DNA of 64,000 nt from Sphaerisporangium corydalis (GTDB lineage Bacteria > Actinomycetota > Actinomycetes > Streptosporangiales > Streptosporangiaceae): positions 1 to 64,000 of the forward strand of contig NZ_JANZYP010000031.1 in NCBI RefSeq assembly GCF_025506355.1, given 5' to 3'. How positions within the stretch are numbered: the stretch's first letter is position 1; each line of letters starts with the position of its first letter. Positions 987-55,149 of this stretch are shown here, piece by piece. The notes under the pieces were generated by a model, which worked only from the letters and a program-made list of their open reading frames with translations, was not told the DNA's origin and did not search any database. A program made the position numbers and the translations under genes.

Positions 987-1646
987 ATGATCCGCGCTGT
1001 GGTCTTCGATGTCGGTGAGTGCCTGGTCGACGAGACGCGGGAGTACGGCACCTGGGCCGACTGGCTGGGCGTTCCCCGGCACACCTTCTCCGCCGTGTTC
1101 GGCGCCGTCATCGCCAGGGGACTGGATTACCGTGAGACATTCCAGGTGTTCCGGCCCGGCTTCGACCTGAGCGAAGAGCGGGAACGACGCGCTGCCGCCG
1201 GCAAAGCGGAGTGGTTCGGCGAGGAGGATCTCTACCCGGACGTTCGCCCGGCGCTTCGTGAATTGCGCGCCAACGGCCTCTGGGTCGGGATCGCCGGAAA
1301 CCAGACGGTGAGAGCGGGCGGGATCCTCCGCGCCCTGGACCTTCCCACGGACATGGTGGCCACGTCCGATGACTGGGGAGTATCCAAGCCGGACCCTGCG
1401 TTCTTCCGGTCCCTGGCGGAGCAGACCCCCTGTGAGCCGGGCGAGATCCTTTACGTCGGTGACCGGCTCGACAACGACATCCGCCCGGCCGCCGCCATGG
1501 GGCTTCCGACGGCGTTGATCCGCCGAGGCCCCTGGGGCATGGCGCAACAGGACGACCCGGCGGCGGATACGGTCCCAACCATGCGCATCACTTCACTCAC
1601 CGAACTGCCCGCCCGGATCGGTGTGTTCGACGCCGCAGGGCGCTGA
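987..1646 (+). CDS. HAD-superfamily hydrolase-like protein, subfamily IA
   Basis: A 219-residue HAD-IA fold protein. Motif I is FDVGECL near residues 7-13: the nucleophile Asp8 is present, but the second Asp of the usual DxD is Gly (DxG). The KPDP lysine motif III (SKPDPAFF) and motif IV YVGDRLDNDI are intact. The DxG form is common in the FDVGGVL branch, whose substrates are mostly unknown, so phosphatase activity should not be assumed. It lies tail to tail with the polysialyltransferase gene (43 bp gap). A role in sugar-phosphate removal for the neighbouring glycan is possible but unproven. No clear Shine-Dalgarno precedes the ATG. Confidence 0.8.
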   Translation: MIRAVVFDVGECLVDETREYGTWADWLGVPRHTFSAVFGAVIARGLDYRETFQVFRPGFDLSEERERRAAAGKAEWFGEEDLYPDVRPALRELRANGLWVGIAGNQTVRAGGILRALDLPTDMVATSDDWGVSKPDPAFFRSLAEQTPCEPGEILYVGDRLDNDIRPAAAMGLPTALIRRGPWGMAQQDDPAADTVPTMRITSLTELPARIGVFDAAGR

Positions 1647-1689: not shown

Positions 1690-3006
1690 TCAGCGGGAGA
1701 GGGCGCGGCGGAGGCGGGAGAGGGGTTTGGGTTTGGGGGGGTCGGGGGTGGGGAGCAGGCCGACGGAGGTCAGGCGGCGGGTCTTGAAGTAGCGGGCCTG
1801 GGTGCCGTGGGTCTCGATGTAGCGGGCGGCCGCTTCGCGGAGCGACGGGTGGTTCTCGCTCTGCATGCAGAAGCCGACCGCGTTCACCAGCCCGGGGAGG
1901 TCGGTCTGCGGCGGGTCGGTGATCGATCCGTCCGGGGCGAGGCGGGGGACGGTGGCGTCGACGATCGTCACCGGGATCCGGTTGCTGTTCTCGTACGGGA
2001 CGAGCCGTTCGAGGACGATGTCGCAGCCCATGGTGGCGACGGGGATGCCGAACAGCCGGTGCGCGGTCATCAGGGCCGTGGAGAAGCAGCCGACCACCAG
2101 CGCGGGGCGGGCGGTCTGGAAGCAGACCTCAGCCGGGACGGTCTCGCCGGCCACGGTCAGCTCGACGCCCAGCTCGGCGGCCACCTCGCGCAGCCGGCGG
2201 GCGTGGTGGCGCCCGGCCGCCGGGTGCGGCTTGAACAGCACGTTCGTGTGCCCGCGCGCGACCAGGGCGCGCAGCATCCCGGCGTGCAGCTCGGCCTCCT
2301 CGTCGGCTGTGACGATCTCCAGCGCCGACAGGTACTGGCCGAGGATCATCGCCCCGCCGGGACTGCCGTGCGTCGCCGGACCGCCCGTGTTTCCGTACGT
2401 CGCCTGATCGGGTGGGGGCGGGGTGGAGACTTCGGTGAGGATGTGGTGGAAGGTGTCGTCGGGGAGGGGGTCGGCGGGGACGCCGGCCTCGGTCAGGAGG
2501 AGGGGGGTGAGGCCGGGGACCAGGTCGAGGTGGAGGAGGCGGGTGATCCGGCCGGAGATCTCCAGCGGCAGCGGGTCCCGGGTCGGCCCGTAGCTCATCA
2601 GCCCGTCGGAGTACACCGTGATCGGGCAGTCGCGGATCAGCGCCGCCACCGTACGCGCCGGGGGCACCGCGATGGACTCAAGGACCAGTTCCTCCACCCC
2701 GTCGTCCAGGGACAGGTGGGAGCTCAGCAGGCGCCCGAGCATGGGCACCTCGATGATCCGCGCCTTCCAGTCCGAGGGGTGCAGGGGCGCGATCACCTCG
2801 TTCCAGGACCGGACCTCGTCGAAGCGCCGCCGGAGCGCGGCGAAGCCCGGCGCCTCGTCCAGGGCCGGTGTGACCTCCGGGACCGAGGCGTTGCCGGACA
2901 CCAGCAGGATGCGGCGCCCGGTGTGCGGGCCGAACCGGCCGGCGTCCATCGCCGAGGCCAGTGTCATCGCCCCGAAGAACGTCGAACTGTAGAAGACCTG
3001 GGTCAC
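1690..3006 (-). CDS. Alpha-2,8-polysialyltransferase-family glycosyltransferase
   Basis: A 438-residue protein resembling the POLYST family (bacterial capsule polysialyltransferases and related GT-B enzymes). The start VTQVFYSSTFFG leads the first Rossmann-like lobe. A VYSDGL segment resembles the D/E-D/E-G motif. NVLFKPHPAAG carries the HP motif, and GCFSTALMT matches the terminal S/T motif that binds the CMP-sugar in this family. The GTG start overlaps the stop of the upstream glycosyltransferase in a GTGA, indicating translational coupling. With the NeuA-NeuB fusion in the same operon, the likely job is transfer or polymerisation of a CMP-activated nonulosonate on a surface glycan. The C-terminus is a basic Pro/Lys/Arg tail. 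The acceptor and whether it polymerises are unknown. Confidence 0.8.
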   Translation of the reverse strand: MTQVFYSSTFFGAMTLASAMDAGRFGPHTGRRILLVSGNASVPEVTPALDEAPGFAALRRRFDEVRSWNEVIAPLHPSDWKARIIEVPMLGRLLSSHLSLDDGVEELVLESIAVPPARTVAALIRDCPITVYSDGLMSYGPTRDPLPLEISGRITRLLHLDLVPGLTPLLLTEAGVPADPLPDDTFHHILTEVSTPPPPDQATYGNTGGPATHGSPGGAMILGQYLSALEIVTADEEAELHAGMLRALVARGHTNVLFKPHPAAGRHHARRLREVAAELGVELTVAGETVPAEVCFQTARPALVVGCFSTALMTAHRLFGIPVATMGCDIVLERLVPYENSNRIPVTIVDATVPRLAPDGSITDPPQTDLPGLVNAVGFCMQSENHPSLREAAARYIETHGTQARYFKTRRLTSVGLLPTPDPPKPKPLSRLRRALSR

Positions 3007-3965
3007 GGGAGGCGCTCCTCGTGCTCGTCGCGGTGCCGGGGGAGCAGCGGGTCGAGCAGCGCGGCCCGCTCGGGTTCCAGCCCCGATCCGGCGACCAGGC
3101 CCGGCGGCAGGCCGGCGAGCACGTCCCGCGCCCTGGCCTCGAACCGGGCGCGGAGCTCGGGGGAGAAGCGGTCGCCCAGCTCCAGGTGGTGGGCCAGCAG
3201 CGCGCAGAAGGTGCGCACGGCCTTGGGCATCAGGTCCGGCTCGTTCTCGACCTGGGCGAACACCAGATCGAAGGCGTCGAAGAAGTGCAGTTGCCGCTCG
3301 TCGCCGATCTGGGTCAGCGACGAGGGCACCATCCGGCGGTAGAACACGCCCGCGAGCGAGGCCACCGCGAACGAGCGCGCCTCCCGGTGTAGCCGCCAGA
3401 TCCACGGCCGGTCCTCGGCGGTGTGCAGGTGGCCGGGGAAGGTGAGCAGGTCGCCCAGCTCGCGGCGGTAGATCCCCGCCCAGGCGTAGGGGTAGTCGAC
3501 CATCGTCTTGGCGGCGGCCGGCAGGATCCGGTCCCTCGGTTTCAGCACGACCCCGCGCCGCGCCTCGGGCGCGCGGTGGACGACCCGCCTGCGCCCCTCC
3601 ACCTGGACGTGGTCGGTCCGGACGAAGTCGCAGCCGAGCCCCTCGATCGCGGCGACCAGGTCGGCGAGGTACCCCCGGGCGAGCCAGTCGTCCCCGTCCA
3701 TGAAGGTGACGTACCGGCCGGACGCGAGGGACAGGCCGAGGTTGCGCGCGTCGGCGAGCCCGGCCGGGGCGGTGTTGCGCAGGACGGTCAGGCCGGGCAG
3801 CTCGTCGCGGAAGTCGTCGATCACCTGCGGGGTGGCGTCCACCGAGCCGTCGTCGACGACGATGAACTCGAAGTCGCGCCGCGTGTTGTACCTCAGCGAG
3901 GCCAGCGCGTCGGCGATGTACGGCTCGGCGTCCCGCACGGGGACGATCACGGACAGGGTGATCAC
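3003..3965 (-). CDS. Glycosyltransferase family 2
   Basis: A 320-residue GT-A enzyme. The N-terminal nucleotide-sugar fold is textbook: LSVIVPVRDAEPYI, then FIVVDDGSVDATP, then ARNLGLSLASGRYVTFMDGDDW, with the DGD metal-binding motif. The C-terminal part (RPWIWRLH, FYRRMVPSSLTQ) resembles glycan-chain GT2 enzymes of teichoic-acid or capsule loci. It is the middle gene of the operon: 133 bp after the NeuA-NeuB fusion and overlapping the polysialyltransferase start by 4 bp. It probably adds another sugar to the same surface polymer. The donor cannot be read from the sequence. Confidence 0.88.
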   Translation of the reverse strand: MITLSVIVPVRDAEPYIADALASLRYNTRRDFEFIVVDDGSVDATPQVIDDFRDELPGLTVLRNTAPAGLADARNLGLSLASGRYVTFMDGDDWLARGYLADLVAAIEGLGCDFVRTDHVQVEGRRRVVHRAPEARRGVVLKPRDRILPAAAKTMVDYPYAWAGIYRRELGDLLTFPGHLHTAEDRPWIWRLHREARSFAVASLAGVFYRRMVPSSLTQIGDERQLHFFDAFDLVFAQVENEPDLMPKAVRTFCALLAHHLELGDRFSPELRARFEARARDVLAGLPPGLVAGSGLEPERAALLDPLLPRHRDEHEERLP

Positions 3966-4098: not shown

Positions 4099-6159
4099 TC
4101 AGACGGTGACGCGGCGGAGCCGGGACTTGGGGGCCTCCTCGCCGGGGAACACCCGCTTGACCCCGTCGCCGAGGGCCGACTCGATGATCCGGATGTCGCG
4201 GACCAGGTGGGTGAGGCCGCTCGGCTCCAGGGACGCGGCGTGGTCGGATCCCCACATCGTGCGGTCCAGGGTGATGTGCCGCTCCACGGTGACCGCGCCG
4301 AGGGTGACGGCGGCCAGCGAGATCTGCAGCCCGCGCTCGTGCCCGGAGTAGCCGACCGGGACGCCGTACCTGTCCTGCAGCGTGGTGATCGTGCGGAGGT
4401 TGGCCTCCTCGGGCGGCAGCGGGTAGGTGGAGGTGGCGTGCATGATGACCAGCCGGGACGTGCCGAGGATCTCCACCGCCTCGTCGATCTCCGGGAGCGT
4501 CGACATGCCGGTCGACAGGATGATCGGCTTGCCGGTGGCGGCGAGCCTGCGCAGCAGCTCGTGGTCGGTCACGCTGGCCGAGGCGACCTTGTGCGTGACG
4601 ACGCCCATCTCCTCCAGGAAGTCGACCGAAGGGACGTCCCACGGGGAGGCGAACCAGTCCAGGCCGCGCTCGGCGCAGTACTTGGCGATCTGGGTGTACT
4701 CGTCGTGGCCGAACTCCACCCGGTGCTTGTACTCCAGGTAGGTCATCTCGCCCCACGGCGTCTGCCGGATCTGGTCGCGCTGCTCGACGGGCACGCAGAT
4801 CTCGGGGGTGCGCTTCTGGAACTTGACCGCCTGGCAGCCGGCGTCGGCGGCGACGTCGATGAGCCGGCGCGCGATGTCCAGGTCGCCGTTGTGGTTGATG
4901 CCGATCTCGCCGATGAAGTACACCGGCTGTCCGGGGCCGACGAGCGACTCGCCGATGCGCACGGGCTCGCCCTTGACGCGCAGCATGGCGCGCGGGCCGG
5001 GGACGAGGGGCTCGGCGACGGCGGGCCTGGCGGCCAGGACCCGGTCGCACAGTTCGCGTACGGCGCCGGCGCCGCCCTGGTGGTCCAGGACGATGCGCGC
5101 GGCGGCCCGCACGCGCGGGTGGGCGTCGGGGACGGCGACCGGCCAGCCGACCAGCTCCATGCACCCGAGGTCGTTGAGGTCGTTGCCCGCGTAGGCGACG
5201 CGGGACGGGTCCAGGCCCTCGATGCTCAGCCACTCGCGCAGCGCGGTCTGCTTGGAGGCCAGGCCCTGAAGGACGGGCACGCCGAGCTTGCGGGCGCGGG
5301 CGGCGACGACCGGGTTGCGCTCGGTCGACAGGACGAGGACCTTGACCCCCGACCGCTTGAGCAGGGAGATCCCGAGGCCGTCGGAGCGGCTGACGGCGAC
5401 CGACTCGCGGCCCTCCTGGTCGACGAACACCAGGTCGTCGGTGTGGACGCCGTCGAAGTCGGTGACCACCGCGTCGACGTCCAGCGGCCCGGGGCGGTCC
5501 ACGAACGGCGCGAGCGCCCGGACGATCTCCAGGTCCTCGGGGGTGTCGATCTCCACGGCGTGCCGGGAGGGCACCGGCTGGACGCCCACGGTGCCGAAGA
5601 AGCGGTGCCCGTGCTCGCGCAGGCCGGCGGTGCGGATGGCGTAGAAGGCGCCGGTCTCGCGGTAGTCGGGGGTGCGGTCCTGGCGGCGCGGGCGGTGCGC
5701 CGGGTCGTGGTTGACCCCGCTGACCCCGGCGTCGCCGGCGGCCCAGACGAACTCGTGGGTCGGCAGGCCGGAGAACACGACGTCGGCGGTCCCGTCGAGG
5801 ACCTGGCCGACGGCGGCGTCCAGGTCGGCGGGGTCGATGAAGGCGCTGGTGCACTGGACGAGCACGACCACCTCGGGGTCGGCGTCGAACTGGTCCAGCG
5901 CGTGCAGCAGGGCCGACTCGCTGGAGGCGGTGGCGCCGCTCAGGCCGGCGGGACGTTCGACGATGCGGGCCCCGGCGGCCCTGGCCGCCTCGGCGATCCC
6001 CTCGTGGTCGGTGCTGACGATCACTTCGTCGATGAGCCCCGACCCCGCGCAGGAGGCCACGGCACGGGCGACCAGGGGCGTGCCGCCCACCTTGGCCAGA
6101 TTCTTCAGCGGGACGCCGGCAGAACCTCCGCGGGCGGGGACGACGGCCAGGACTCGCAA
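4099..6159 (-). CDS. Trifunctional CMP-nonulosonate synthetase / KdsC-like phosphatase / NeuB-like synthase fusion
   Basis: One 686-residue chain holds three enzymes of one pathway. Residues 1-220 are a NeuA-type cytidylyltransferase (VVPARGGSAGVPLKNL; RPRRQDRTPDYRETGAFY). Residues 230-390 are a HAD domain of the KdsC type with DFDGV (both Asp, 234 and 236), LVLSTERN, GLASKQ (Lys303) and GNDLND, so it looks catalytically complete. Residues 412-680 are NeuB-like (FIGEIGINHNGD, KFQKRTPE, LSTGMSTL, ATSTYP, VGYSGHERG, VERHITLD), condensing PEP with an N-acyl-mannosamine-type sugar. The usual C-terminal SAF (antifreeze-like) domain of NeuB is absent. I chose the TTG start at 6159 because GAGGAG precedes it by 5 nt and translation then begins MRVLAVVPARGG. 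A GTG at 6222 would add 21 residues but has no ribosome site. It heads the operon with the GT2 and polysialyltransferase genes. No NeuC epimerase is visible in the window. Confidence 0.9.
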   Translation of the reverse strand: MRVLAVVPARGGSAGVPLKNLAKVGGTPLVARAVASCAGSGLIDEVIVSTDHEGIAEAARAAGARIVERPAGLSGATASSESALLHALDQFDADPEVVVLVQCTSAFIDPADLDAAVGQVLDGTADVVFSGLPTHEFVWAAGDAGVSGVNHDPAHRPRRQDRTPDYRETGAFYAIRTAGLREHGHRFFGTVGVQPVPSRHAVEIDTPEDLEIVRALAPFVDRPGPLDVDAVVTDFDGVHTDDLVFVDQEGRESVAVSRSDGLGISLLKRSGVKVLVLSTERNPVVAARARKLGVPVLQGLASKQTALREWLSIEGLDPSRVAYAGNDLNDLGCMELVGWPVAVPDAHPRVRAAARIVLDHQGGAGAVRELCDRVLAARPAVAEPLVPGPRAMLRVKGEPVRIGESLVGPGQPVYFIGEIGINHNGDLDIARRLIDVAADAGCQAVKFQKRTPEICVPVEQRDQIRQTPWGEMTYLEYKHRVEFGHDEYTQIAKYCAERGLDWFASPWDVPSVDFLEEMGVVTHKVASASVTDHELLRRLAATGKPIILSTGMSTLPEIDEAVEILGTSRLVIMHATSTYPLPPEEANLRTITTLQDRYGVPVGYSGHERGLQISLAAVTLGAVTVERHITLDRTMWGSDHAASLEPSGLTHLVRDIRIIESALGDGVKRVFPGEEAPKSRLRRVTV

Positions 6160-6305
6160 GGTGACTCCTCGATATGCGGCGTGGCGAGCGTTGCCGGGGG
6201 GAACAGGCTCGCAGGGTGTCACGCACGCTAACCACCTGCGCCGTCGCGCAAGGGGAGCCTGAGCTGAACGCTCAGCGTCGCTCCTGTTAACTCTTGGAGC
6301 AGCCG

Positions 6306-7661
6306 TTATTCGATCATCGGCAGCCGCAGGACGAACCTGGTGCCCTCAGGGACGTCCTCGACGTGCAGGGTCCCGCCGTGCGCGATGGCCACGTCGCGGG
6401 CGATGGCGAGCCCGAGGCCGGTGCCGCCCCGGTCCCTGCTGCGGGAGGTGTCGAGCCGGGTGAAACGGTGGAAGACGCGCTCGCGGTCCTGCTCGGGGAT
6501 GCGGTCGCCGTCGTTCAGCACCGACAGCACGGCCGTGCCCCGCTGGCCGGTCACCTCCACCCTGATCACGCTGGAGGCGTGCCGGCGCGCGTTGTCCAGC
6601 AGGTTGTCGATCACGCGGAAGAGCTGGGTCTGGACGCCGAGCACGGTCACGTCCTCCTGGAGGTCGGCGCGCACCGGGATCCGCCCGCCGCAGCGCGCGA
6701 TCTCCCCGGCGGCGAGCCGGCCGAGGTCGACCGGCTCCTGCACGGCGGGGCCGCTGGAGCCGAGCCTGGCCATGAACAGCAGGTCGGTGATGATGGCCTC
6801 CAGCCGGTCGGTGTCGCGCAGCGCTCCGTTCACCAGGGTCGCCAGGTCGGCGTGCTCGGGGTGCAGGCGCGCCTCCTCCAGTTGGGTGCGGAGCCCGGCG
6901 ATCGGGGTGCGCAGCTCGTGGGAGGCGTCGGCGGCGAAGCGGCGCTGCTGCTCCACCGAGTGCTCCAGCCGGGCGAGCGTGCCGTTGACGGTCCTGGCCA
7001 GGGTGGAGATCTCGTCCTCTCCCGGCGGTTCCTGGACGCGGCGCGACAGGTCGCTCACGGTGATGTGGGCCAGTTCGGCCTGGATGTTGTCGACGGTCCG
7101 CAGCCCCCGGTCGGCGGCCTTCCACACGATCCAGCCGATCAGGGCGGCGACGCCCGCGATGTGCAGGGCGACGGCCACGTCCAGGAAGCGGCCGGACAGC
7201 ACCCGGGGGGTGCGCGCGGCGGCGTACACGACGGGCGCGCCGGGCGCGGAGCCGGTCACCACGGCCGTGGCGTGGAAGCAGATCTTGGGGTTCCGGGTGC
7301 AGGTGGCGAGGTCGACGAGCCGGTTGGGCAGGTCGGGGCGCACGTCGCTGATCCTCGGCATCGCCTGGGCCTCGCCGGTGGAGGCCACGATGTGGCCGCC
7401 GGGTCCGACGACCTGGATGACGGTGACGCCGTCGGGGCCGGGCGCGATGGGGTTGCGCAGGGTCGTGTCCCGGTAGGCGACGACGACGCGGGACGCGGCC
7501 TCCCTGGTCTCACGCCAGATGGAGTCGGCGACCGTGCTTCTGATGACCATGTCGGCGGCCAGGCCGAGGGGGATCAGGAACAGGCCCGCGAGTACGAGGG
7601 TGAGGAGGGTGACCTGCCCCCGGATCGACCGAGGCCATACGGCGGCCCGTGGGAGGGACAT
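6306..7661 (-). CDS. Sensor histidine kinase, no adjacent response regulator
   Basis: A 451-residue EnvZ/OmpR-class kinase. It has an N-terminal transmembrane helix (about 15-40), an extracytoplasmic sensor of roughly 120 residues with two Cys (CTRNPKICFH) that could form a disulfide, and a second helix (about 170-190). A HAMP linker follows, then a HisKA domain with DASHELRTPIAG, and HATPase motifs N (NLLDNARRHA), G1 and G2 (GGTGLGLAIARDV). The neighbours are the NeuAB fusion downstream and a divergent beta-helix gene, so no cognate regulator is adjacent. The ATG at 7661 is preferred over the TTG at 7667; neither has a strong ribosome site. Confidence 0.9.
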   Translation of the reverse strand: MSLPRAAVWPRSIRGQVTLLTLVLAGLFLIPLGLAADMVIRSTVADSIWRETREAASRVVVAYRDTTLRNPIAPGPDGVTVIQVVGPGGHIVASTGEAQAMPRISDVRPDLPNRLVDLATCTRNPKICFHATAVVTGSAPGAPVVYAAARTPRVLSGRFLDVAVALHIAGVAALIGWIVWKAADRGLRTVDNIQAELAHITVSDLSRRVQEPPGEDEISTLARTVNGTLARLEHSVEQQRRFAADASHELRTPIAGLRTQLEEARLHPEHADLATLVNGALRDTDRLEAIITDLLFMARLGSSGPAVQEPVDLGRLAAGEIARCGGRIPVRADLQEDVTVLGVQTQLFRVIDNLLDNARRHASSVIRVEVTGQRGTAVLSVLNDGDRIPEQDRERVFHRFTRLDTSRSRDRGGTGLGLAIARDVAIAHGGTLHVEDVPEGTRFVLRLPMIE

Positions 7662-7886
7662 TGGCAAAGGCTACTCGCGGGGTTCTCCGGCAAGATCCGG
7701 GCGCCGGGCAAGAGATGTCCAAGGGATGGCAAACTCGCCGGGCCCGCCCGGGGGAGAGGCGCCGGGGAGCCTACCGTCCGGCGTGCCGGGTCACCAGATC
7801 CGGCCGCCGCGGGTTGGGGTCTCCCGGTGGGGACCTCCGACCGCTACCGTGAGCGGCAGCGATCAATTATTACAGAGTGTGGGGTT

Positions 7887-53554: not shown

Positions 53555-53587
53555 ACCCATCACCCCCGGAAAGCGGGGGTGGTGGGT
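53555..53587. terminator. 14-bp stem-loop between convergent genes
   Basis: ACCCATCACCCCCG pairs with CGGGGGTGGTGGGT (one G-T wobble) around GAAAG. It lies in the 48-bp gap between the spermidine-synthase-like gene and the LCP gene, so it can stop transcription from both sides. The right arm ends at the LCP stop codon. Confidence 0.85.
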
Positions 53588-55149
53588 CAGAGGCCGCAGG
53601 ATTCGGCGAGGGATTTGGCGGCGGGTTTGGTGGGGCGGTTGGGGGTGGGGGTTTGGAGGGCGGTGGGGGTTTTGGGGGTGGTGGCGGCGGTGGGGAGGCC
53701 GCCTGAGCCGGAGGGGGTCGCGCCGGGGCTGGCGGTCACGCCGGCGGCCAGGGCACTCCTGGTGGTGCGCTCGGAGTCCCTGAGGGCCTGCGCGGCGAGG
53801 CGGCGGATCTTCAGCCAGTCCGCGGAGCCCGGCCAGATGGTGGGCGGCACGAACTGCAGGCTGGTCGTCTTGGCGTCCTTGACCTTCAGGGCCAGCGGCA
53901 CCAGGTGCTCCAGCAGGTCGCGCGGGATGTCGGTGCGGAACATGTGCCGGGTCGCGCTGGCGATCTTGCCGAAGTTGGCCAGGACCGTGCTGGGCGTGGC
54001 CTGGTCGAGCAGGGCGCCCATCACGCAGCGCTGACGCGACATGCGGGAGAAGTCATCGCTGTCGACGCGGGAGCGCCCGTACCAGAGCACGTGCTCGCCG
54101 TCGAGCTTGTGGTAGCCGGCCTTGATGGTGCCGGCCGTGCCGAAGTGACCGCCCCACTTGACATCGCGCTCGACACGGATTCTGAGGCCGCCGATCGCGT
54201 CGATGAGCGCCGCGAAGCCGTACATGTCGACGATCGCGTAGTAGTCGACCTTCAGGCCCAGGGTGTAGCCGATGGCGGACTTGAGCTCGTGGGGTCCCTT
54301 GCCCTTGCCGAGGTGGTCCTCGGAGTACTGCCAGACCTCGTTGAGCAGGCCCTGGCCGGAGTCGCCGGTGAACCCGTTGGGGAACTTCGCCGCCAGCGGG
54401 TCGCCCTTGGGGAACCGGACGAACTGCAGGTTGCGCGGCAGCCCGAACATGACGGCGTTGCCGGTCCTGACGTCGACGCTGGCCACGGTCATGCTGTCGG
54501 TCCGCACGCCCGTGCGGTCGCCGGCCGCGTCACCGCCGATGAGCAGGAAGTTGACCCGGCGCCGGCCGTTCCACGGGTCCTCCTGCTTGACCGGGGCGGC
54601 CGTCGTGCCCGGCTCCGGGTCGCTCGGGAAGATCGAGTTGATGGTCTCCTGGGCCGTCAGCACGCTGCTCGCCGTCAGGGCGAACGGTCCCATGATGCCG
54701 ACGCACAGGATGCCGACCACGACGCCTGACACGATCTGGCCGGTCTGGGGCAGCCGGTCGGGGCGCAGGGCGACGTAGGAGGTGATGACCAGGGCGAACC
54801 ACGCGAGCGCGCCGACGGCCGCCGCGATGGTCACTCCCACGAGGAAGCCGTTGGTGGCGGCGAGCCCCACGTTGGAGCGCAGGACGAGCGCGAGGACGAC
54901 GCCGCAGACGATGACGGCGCCGAAGACGCCGAGCAGGATGAACCCGCCACGCCGCCGGCCCGCCCGTAAGTGGGCGGCGCCTGGGACCAGTGCGGACAGA
55001 GTCGTCCACCCGATCACCGAGGCCGTGGTGGGGGCCTTGGCGAAGCGGGGCGGGGCGGGGGCGGTCTTCGGCCGCGGAGCGGGTCTCTCCGATTCCCCCG
55101 GGCCGTCTCCGGCTGCCTCCCCCACGGTCTGGCCCAGAGGCGTGGTCAC
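53587..55149 (-). CDS. LytR-CpsA-Psr (LCP) family cell-wall glycopolymer ligase
   Basis: A 520-residue membrane protein. The N-terminus has a Pro-rich cytoplasmic lead and about four helices (GGFILLGVFGAVIVCGVVLA onward). The extracytoplasmic LCP domain shows FLLIGGDAAGDRTGVRTDSM, GLPRNLQFVRFP, YYAIVDMYGFAALIDAIGGL and LWYGRSRVDSDDFSRMSRQR, with the Arg/Asp residues that bind polyprenyl-pyrophosphate. It attaches wall polymers to peptidoglycan. The C-terminal tail is Thr/Pro-rich. GAGGGAG is 7 nt before the GTG. It could act on the nonulosonate polymer, but nothing in the sequence shows this. Confidence 0.92.
   Translation of the reverse strand: MTTPLGQTVGEAAGDGPGESERPAPRPKTAPAPPRFAKAPTTASVIGWTTLSALVPGAAHLRAGRRRGGFILLGVFGAVIVCGVVLALVLRSNVGLAATNGFLVGVTIAAAVGALAWFALVITSYVALRPDRLPQTGQIVSGVVVGILCVGIMGPFALTASSVLTAQETINSIFPSDPEPGTTAAPVKQEDPWNGRRRVNFLLIGGDAAGDRTGVRTDSMTVASVDVRTGNAVMFGLPRNLQFVRFPKGDPLAAKFPNGFTGDSGQGLLNEVWQYSEDHLGKGKGPHELKSAIGYTLGLKVDYYAIVDMYGFAALIDAIGGLRIRVERDVKWGGHFGTAGTIKAGYHKLDGEHVLWYGRSRVDSDDFSRMSRQRCVMGALLDQATPSTVLANFGKIASATRHMFRTDIPRDLLEHLVPLALKVKDAKTTSLQFVPPTIWPGSADWLKIRRLAAQALRDSERTTRSALAAGVTASPGATPSGSGGLPTAATTPKTPTALQTPTPNRPTKPAAKSLAESCGL

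Follow-up and report, generated by a model that had tools for sequence, protein, structure and literature searches.

A NeuA-phosphatase-NeuB fusion without a SAF domain in Sphaerisporangium corydalis: a probable one-chain source of CMP-Kdn for a phosphate-free wall polymer

The 64,000-nucleotide stretch of Sphaerisporangium corydalis DNA analysed here (the window) carries, at 4099-6159 of its minus strand, a gene that joins three enzymes of nonulosonate synthesis in one chain of 686 residues: a NeuA, a KdsC-like phosphatase of the HAD type and a NeuB. The frame is intact, running from a TTG start to a single terminal stop, and a GAGGAG resembling a ribosome-binding site lies upstream of the TTG (6159), at 6165-6170. 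Starting instead at a GTG in frame at 6222 would lengthen the chain by 21 residues; the alignment of relatives begins at the TTG. Residues 1-213 (5521-6159) make up the NeuA domain, a predicted synthetase of cytidine monophosphate (CMP)-nonulosonate, residues 228-379 (5023-5478) the predicted phosphatase, and residues 396-686 (4102-4974) the NeuB barrel, all on the minus strand. Pfam places CTP_transf_3 at 5-211 (7.9e-22), Hydrolase_3 at 300-363 (3.7e-08) and NeuB at 433-668 (4.8e-84); NCBIfam gives a PseF-like match at 4-213, a KdsC-like match at 229-379 and NeuB_NnaB at 414-682, the last covering only profile positions 2-277 of 329, with the profile end missing. A Pfam scan up to E 1 found no SAF domain in the chain, and the same scan detected one (1.9e-11) in an Azospirillum NeuB. 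The original prediction had described three enzymes in one chain and a NeuB without SAF, and the domain search bears out both. The fusion occurs once in the genome (9.48 Mb, 162 contigs) and is its one full NeuB by PF03102, which also gives two partial matches (profile positions 56-146; 30.0 and 29.3 bits; cut-off 22.1).

How common is such a gene? All counts out of 80 given here refer to the best 80 of 431 named loci confirmed by scan, of which the closest relative is Sphaerisporangium perillae (92%). In 79 of the 80 the gene is the same single open frame, of 670 residues or more, which rules out a frame error or misassembly splitting the gene; in Thermobifida fusca, the exception, the frame stops after the HAD. 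The carriers are Streptosporangiaceae and include Sphaerisporangium, Nonomuraea, Streptosporangium, Microbispora, Planomonospora and Herbidospora, among others. An order-level survey matched 114 of 200 genomes and left 86 without a match. Among the matches listed, 88 have one frame through the three domains (including genome G140, where a single 709-residue frame spans two pieces), another 12 are unfused (six by one in-frame stop, six as separate pieces), three are undecidable because of fragments or contig ends (G025, G029, G102) and 11 are other or partial matches only. The fusion is not an artefact, nor is it rare within the family.

At class level, 106 of 394 genomes matched at E 1e-40 and 288 did not, and among the matches listed the only stop-free three-part frame outside the family is that of genome G426 (L044/L144, family f47), 68% identical. 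No three-part fusion was found in 11 further outside loci (L150, L156-L165): in nine a stop or a shift of frame separates HAD from NeuB, and the L160 stretch is without a NeuB. The eleventh is L156 (G387), where at 1758-3404 of a 4.1-kb contig NeuA continues in frame into NeuB with no HAD, either a two-part fusion or an assembly effect. On a thinned tree with 24 fused and 13 unfused rows (37 in all), the fused label has to change twice, once for the family and once for L044, the forks near L044 being partly weak; the fusion in G426 is apparently a second, independent event. Two alignments of the named proteins were made, one (A1) of 46 of the 79 fused proteins, thinned at 93% identity, with the window protein and the T. 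fusca NeuA-HAD piece, the other (A2) of 41 of those 46 with the window protein and the T. fusca NeuB.

In the central domain, the residues of the HAD catalytic motifs, D234, D236, S278, K303, N326, D327 and D330, are found in 80 of 80 named relatives, in agreement with the earlier claim that all these motifs are present. E280, R288 and K291 align, by extension of the alignment, with E56, R64 and K67 of PDB 3e81, which by NCBIfam is a Bacteroides-type phosphatase of the 9-phosphate of 2-keto-3-deoxynononic acid (Kdn) (264 bits, cut-off 180), the depositors' label being acylneuraminate cytidylyltransferase; 4hgq and 4hgr are the E56A and E56A/K67A forms of the same protein. These three residues are presumably determinants of Kdn-9-phosphate phosphatase specificity. 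Five KdsC-type rows (four of 14 chains in one search and one from another) have Arg (four) or Ala (one) at position 56 and Thr (three), Ser or Gln (one each) at position 67, R64 being common to all. The Glu/Arg/Lys set is present in all 80 named relatives, in all other clade members tested (39 + 4 + 1 + 1 + 4 + 3) and in the HADs of Methylomagnum and Sinorhizobium meliloti. A route through a 9-phosphate, first proposed from the completeness of the phosphatase, is well supported by the predicted motifs and the Glu/Arg/Lys set of the Bacteroides enzyme.

The flanking domains also keep catalytic residues. The NeuA domain (CTP_transf_3, PF02348) has equivalents of R10, K19, Q102, R159 and D205, as a CMP-nonulosonate synthetase does, and its nearest solved structure is 9t4z, PpNeuA, a CMP-Kdn synthetase. 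In the NeuB, the PF03102 catalytic barrel retains equivalents of E25, Q55, K129, Y186, S213, H215, E234, H236 and D247, H236 and D247 being, we assume, active-site residues. T110 is replaced by Ser, F112 by Trp and N184 by Ser; the N74 region is poorly aligned, and F288 and R314 lie past the chain end. Against TIGR03569, the NeuB_NnaB model of N-acetylneuraminic acid (Neu5Ac) synthases, the domain scores 269 bits, below the cut-off of 399.65, and SAF with its Arg314 is absent. It is 41% identical to a human NANS sequence not drawn from a database, compared with 29% to meningococcal NeuB, 31% to PseI and 33% to SpsE. Predicted alone, the domain reached a mean per-residue confidence (pLDDT) of 77.2 and a predicted template modelling score (pTM) of 0.79, with the tail 271-291 below 50; the top Foldseek matches of this model were PseI, the 285-residue 6ncs chain (which may be a shortened construct), SpsE and meningococcal NeuB, followed lower down by DAHP and KDO8P synthases.

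When was SAF lost? Whether fused or not, the 53 NeuB-bearing loci of L001-L054 (L050 has no NeuB) finish at a common LRR-like tail, give or take some 20 residues, and 10 further NeuB loci outside the family share that end point; the unfused NeuB orthologues of Streptomyces and of families f28 and f38 stop at the same place as the fused ones. Nor was a SAF match found in the stand-alone NeuB relatives of Hymenobacter (293 residues), Methylomagnum (301), S. meliloti (312) and Streptomyces L141, the control being positive. Identity to the fused NeuB domain is 61% for Hymenobacter, 58% for Methylomagnum and 33% for the distant S. meliloti protein. Because unfused NeuBs of the same clade and stand-alone ones are equally without SAF, the domain was missing before the fusion took place.

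The gene neighbourhood, assigned by Pfam and synteny, adds a polymer context. Next downstream on the minus strand is a GT2 glycosyltransferase (3003-3965), followed by a polysialyltransferase-like protein of PF07388 (1690-3006), the start of which overlaps the GT2 stop in the sequence GTGA. On the plus strand, a DUF6716 putative glycosyltransferase (1-930) has a frame open to base 1, which is the contig start, and seems to have been cut there by the assembly. The order fusion, GT2, PF07388 on the same strand recurs in 79 of the 80 named loci, with 2-3.4 kb between in L070, L071 and L075; the exception, L127, shows neither of these two genes in the 1.5 kb examined downstream, where DUF6716 is present. 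DUF6716 occurs on the opposite strand in 72 of the 80 stretches. All four Streptomyces regions (genus g62, assigned from HAD domains 79-96% identical to PDB 3mmz, titled Streptomyces avermitilis) have NeuB, NeuA-HAD, DUF6716 (28-34% identical), GT2 and PF07388 within about 6 kb, and L144, L145 and L150, three of six other regions outside the family, have all five genes. The genes expected of a teichulosonic acid operon, i.e. nonulosonate enzymes, GT2, PF07388 and DUF6716, thus stand together in the window. Sections of a review (PMC7831098) and of a research paper (PMC11481543) describe in Streptomyces walls a teichulosonic acid that is made of galactose and Kdn and contains no phosphate. Its cluster, SCO4873-SCO4882, is under PhoP control according to part of PMC13011467, and in S. 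lividans its counterpart is raised in a mutant under phosphate stress, as stated in portions of PMC8003754. In Planobispora rosea, a member of the family, excerpts of PMC8269224 list among PhoP-activated genes, there called teichuronic, the SCO4877-4880 and SCO4882 orthologues, one of them a 'sialic acid synthase'; Planobispora takensis (L071) carries the fusion.

Upstream of the fusion, on its strand, lies a direct repeat, GTTAA...GTTCA at 22-nucleotide (nt) spacing (6265-6291), a PHO-box-like candidate operator recognized by pattern scan and in relatives. Such GTTMA repeats 22 nt apart were found in the 160 nt searched upstream of the fusion in 73 of the 80 named loci, and in the window. As background, such a repeat turned up in one of 1573 random windows of 160 nt from these loci, and seven times on the two strands of the other 1.68 Mb. 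By eye, the seven loci without the repeat include four (L110, L128, L130, L137) with GTTAA/GTTCA 11 nt apart and two (L061, L127) with a 22-nt form carrying ATTAA. With a narrower pattern applied before, 44 of 81 loci showed the repeat at spacing 22, where shuffles yielded 0.04, and three each showed it at 11 and 12; paired repeats 11 nt apart occurred in three of 81 with the first pattern and in none of 81 with a strict one. The 22-nt spacing is a post-hoc pattern, found after the 11-nt patterns and then set against random windows, and the counts speak for conservation, not for independent cases, the loci being related. In Streptomyces L141, L142, L143 and L149, units GTTCAC, GTTCAT and GTTAAG stand 22 nt apart upstream of GT2, on its strand. 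At the genome's own pstS, a looser pattern and inspection by eye showed GTTCATTCCTCGTTCACC, with GGTCACC 22 nt after the second unit; a scan of that locus with a pattern barring T at one position gave nothing. We take GTTCACC-like 11-nt units to be PhoP sites, and the repeat upstream of the fusion suggests possible phosphate-starvation control.

How did the fusion originate? In Streptomyces the NeuA-HAD protein and NeuB are separate, adjoining genes, and in close relatives of the family (L041-L043) a stop ends the HAD, a Met follows two codons on, and then comes NeuB. NeuA-HAD proteins, 44-46% identical, are also encoded on Sinorhizobium/Ensifer megaplasmids. Since NeuA-HAD and NeuB are separate neighbours in Streptomyces and in close relatives, NeuA-HAD is evidently the older unit, to which NeuB was joined later; the fusion would have arisen when a pre-existing NeuA-HAD gene ran into the adjoining NeuB gene. 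That the domains run opposite to the pathway, as had been remarked, reflects the ancestral gene order seen in unfused NeuA-HAD, NeuB pairs.

What does the chain make? The interpretation favoured here, at a probability of roughly 0.65, is that of a trifunctional CMP-Kdn synthase that supplies a wall polymer without phosphate, of the teichulosonic acid type and likely made when phosphate is scarce. It draws on the Glu/Arg/Lys set of the HAD, on PpNeuA as the nearest solved NeuA, on the want of NeuC and NanE and on the gene context. In the S. corydalis genome no NeuC was detected, the sole Epimerase_2 protein being of the WecB type (279.5 bits, over the cut-off) and scoring 64 bits as NeuC, far under; a search for NanE in the same genome gave no match. 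The NeuB part would convert mannose-6-phosphate and phosphoenolpyruvate (PEP) to Kdn-9-phosphate, the central HAD would take off the 9-phosphate, and the NeuA part would make CMP-Kdn from Kdn and cytidine triphosphate (CTP). GT2 and the adjacent polysialyltransferase-like enzyme would then assemble the Kdn-containing polymer, probably under phosphate scarcity. Domains, key residues, gene order, distribution and unfused relatives are observed here, while the sugar used, the product, the activity of the single domains, the cause of the SAF loss and the regulation are inferred. The path from mannose-6-phosphate through Kdn-9-phosphate to CMP-Kdn is established in Bacteroides and in the alga Prymnesium; in the latter, according to passages of PMC6200933, the Kdn-9-phosphate synthetase takes only mannose-6-phosphate of the sugars tested and the CMP-Kdn synthetase does not use Neu5Ac.

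A reason for the missing SAF can be proposed in the same terms. Parts of PMC6795526 report that in meningococcal NeuB the domain supplies one active-site residue, Arg314, which positions the N-acetyl group of N-acetylmannosamine (ManNAc), R314A being inactive and R314K active, and that KDO8P synthase-type enzymes are without a SAF domain. Mannose-6-phosphate has no N-acetyl group to be read by this Arg, which may be why SAF is absent from a synthase that would use that sugar.

Several observations weigh against the CMP-Kdn interpretation. Vertebrate NANS has SAF and uses phosphosugars, so phosphosugar use alone does not account for the loss. The HAD scores higher on the KdsC model (108.5 bits, cut-off 208, with Glu and Lys in place of R56/T67-type residues) than on the Kdn-9-phosphate phosphatase model NF058599 (81.3 bits, cut-off 180), both scores being below cut-off; it is the latter model that the S. 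meliloti and Methylomagnum HADs match better. L156, with its NeuA-NeuB frame and no HAD, counts on the same side. In L146-L148, the other three of the six regions outside the family, neither a GT2 nor a PF07388 gene lies within 20 kb, and no mention of Kdn in Sphaerisporangium was found in the literature examined. The whole-chain structure prediction (pLDDT 75.8, pTM 0.50, residues 631-670 and 672-686 below 50) is too weak to show anything of domain contacts. The chief brake on confidence is the NeuA pocket. Y173, F187 and F188 align with Y179, F192 and F193, the N-acetyl pocket of meningococcal CMP-Neu5Ac synthetase, for which sections of PMC2901514 report a performance on Kdn lower by about 5000-fold, against only 15-fold for the mouse enzyme, whose pocket is different. 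F187 is conserved in 80 and F188 in 79 of the 80 named relatives, while the Kdn-only PpNeuA has neither Phe (Leu/Gly instead), and the pocket is not of the PpNeuA type. The same N-acetyl pocket residues are present in all four Streptomyces NeuAs, and since Streptomyces walls contain Kdn, the pocket is not decisive; it may be compatible with Kdn, though unexplained.

Could the chain make CMP-Neu5Ac instead, in the animal manner suggested by the original prediction, from ManNAc-6-phosphate and PEP through Neu5Ac-9-phosphate, dephosphorylation and activation? The NeuA pocket points to an N-acetyl sugar, and the NeuB is nearer to human NANS (41%, again with the NANS sequence used above) than to meningococcal NeuB (29%). 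This is still an unlikely outcome, though one with a real minor share of the probability: the genome is without a NeuC-type epimerase and NanE (ManNAc kinases were not searched for), nine of 13 fusion carriers present in both the order survey and the NanE search have no NanE over the cut-off and four do, the SAF Arg is absent, and the Streptomyces counterpart polymer contains Kdn. Another 3-deoxy sugar acid, either CMP-3-deoxy-octulosonic acid (CMP-Kdo) by an 8-phosphate route or legionaminic or pseudaminic acid, is brought to mind by the KdsC-like score of the HAD and by PseF and PseI among the NCBIfam matches. It is the least credible of the products considered. NeuB and NeuA score better on nonulosonate than on Kdo models, and the Kdo phosphatase residues at 56 and 67 are absent. 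Legionaminic and pseudaminic acids are 9-deoxy sugars with no 9-OH to phosphorylate; the bacillosamine-type precursors suggested earlier would leave a 9-phosphatase nothing to act on.

Two other possibilities concern the architecture of the chain. The HAD might be a scaffold only, as is thought for vertebrate CMAS, with NeuB taking an unphosphorylated sugar; L156 seems to manage without a HAD (on a 4.1-kb contig, and possibly as an assembly effect). Such a role is improbable given that catalytic and Kdn-type residues are kept in 80 of 80 named relatives, and that Methylomagnum encodes a Glu/Arg/Lys HAD on its own, next to NeuB. Still less probable is the suggestion, made with the original prediction, that the NeuA and HAD parts structurally replace the missing SAF lid. 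No point was found in its favour, the whole-chain model having a pTM of 0.50, and it fails on comparison, as unfused NeuBs of the clade share the end point and stand-alone relatives in Bacteroidota and Pseudomonadota show no SAF match.

How does the chain compare with known systems? In vertebrates, CMAS consists of NeuA followed by HAD, with no NeuB in the chain, and NANS of NeuB and SAF; the NeuA-HAD order and a NANS-like NeuB (41%, with the NANS sequence already mentioned) are shared, and the separate NeuB and the SAF of NANS are the differences. The Bacteroides thetaiotaomicron Kdn pathway (BT1714 Kdn-9-phosphate synthetase, phosphatase and CMP-Kdn synthetase; sections of PMC6200933) has the three activities predicted here, and its phosphatase, 3e81, the same Glu/Arg/Lys residues, but its enzymes are separate proteins. 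The Streptomyces SCO4873-SCO4882 cluster is alike in bringing NeuB, NeuA-HAD, DUF6716, GT2 and PF07388 together, in GTTCA repeats at 22 nt and in a NeuB without SAF (checked in Streptomyces genomes other than S. coelicolor); it differs in having NeuB as a gene of its own, with GT2 and PF07388 oriented divergently to it, and in a DUF6716 only about 30% identical. A Leptospira NulO synthase with a C-terminal phosphatase domain, for which the authors infer an animal-like 9-phosphate route, is likewise a synthase-phosphatase fusion, but with another domain order, an added domain described as homologous to endonucleases and no NeuA in the chain (portions of PMC3438082). Sinorhizobium/Ensifer megaplasmids share NeuA-HAD (44-46%), and S. 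meliloti has a NeuB-like gene and DUF6716 beside it, the NeuB being a separate gene, 33% identical.

The Kdn chemistry, the NeuA-HAD pair and the idea of a synthase-phosphatase fusion are already known; the three-part chain with a SAF-less NeuB seems to be new. No description of such a fusion was found in the literature searched, a coverage with few subscription journals. The CMP-Kdn interpretation offers a testable sequence rule, whereby a SAF-less NeuB together with a Glu/Lys HAD indicates Kdn rather than Neu5Ac, and it names a likely precursor enzyme of a wall polymer for a large actinomycete family. If true, it also provides a candidate ready-made single enzyme for CMP-Kdn from mannose-6-phosphate. 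A wider proposal is more doubtful and is put forward tentatively: SAF-less NeuBs, seen in Actinomycetota, Bacteroidota and Pseudomonadota, might form a widespread class making Kdn-9-phosphate from mannose-6-phosphate, with the Streptosporangiaceae route to CMP-Kdn condensed into one phosphate-starvation-induced polypeptide, a particle tied together by its HAD that passes on intermediates. HAD relatives are tetrameric, and channelling via a HAD-centred oligomer is possible.

Some minor observations may be added. On S. meliloti pSymB (L153, 4062-9869), the NeuB-like gene, NeuA-HAD and DUF6716 are accompanied by an annotated alpha-2,3-sialyltransferase and an O-acetyltransferase near a capsule gene. 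On a Methylomagnum plasmid (L152, 946-6558), the SAF-less NeuB and the Glu/Lys HAD, separate genes there, have DXS-like halves, an aminotransferase and an SDR as neighbours. Within the window, a sensor histidine kinase (6306-7667, minus strand) lies directly upstream of the fusion; 52 of the 80 named stretches contain a match of >100 bits to it, which does not adjoin in every case. A HAD-IA hydrolase (987-1646, plus strand) sits between the DUF6716 and PF07388 genes and has no relative in the 80 named stretches by tblastn at 1e-10. About 48 kb from the operon, at 53587-55149 on the minus strand, is a LytR_CpsA_Psr (LCP) protein, a possible wall-polymer ligase.

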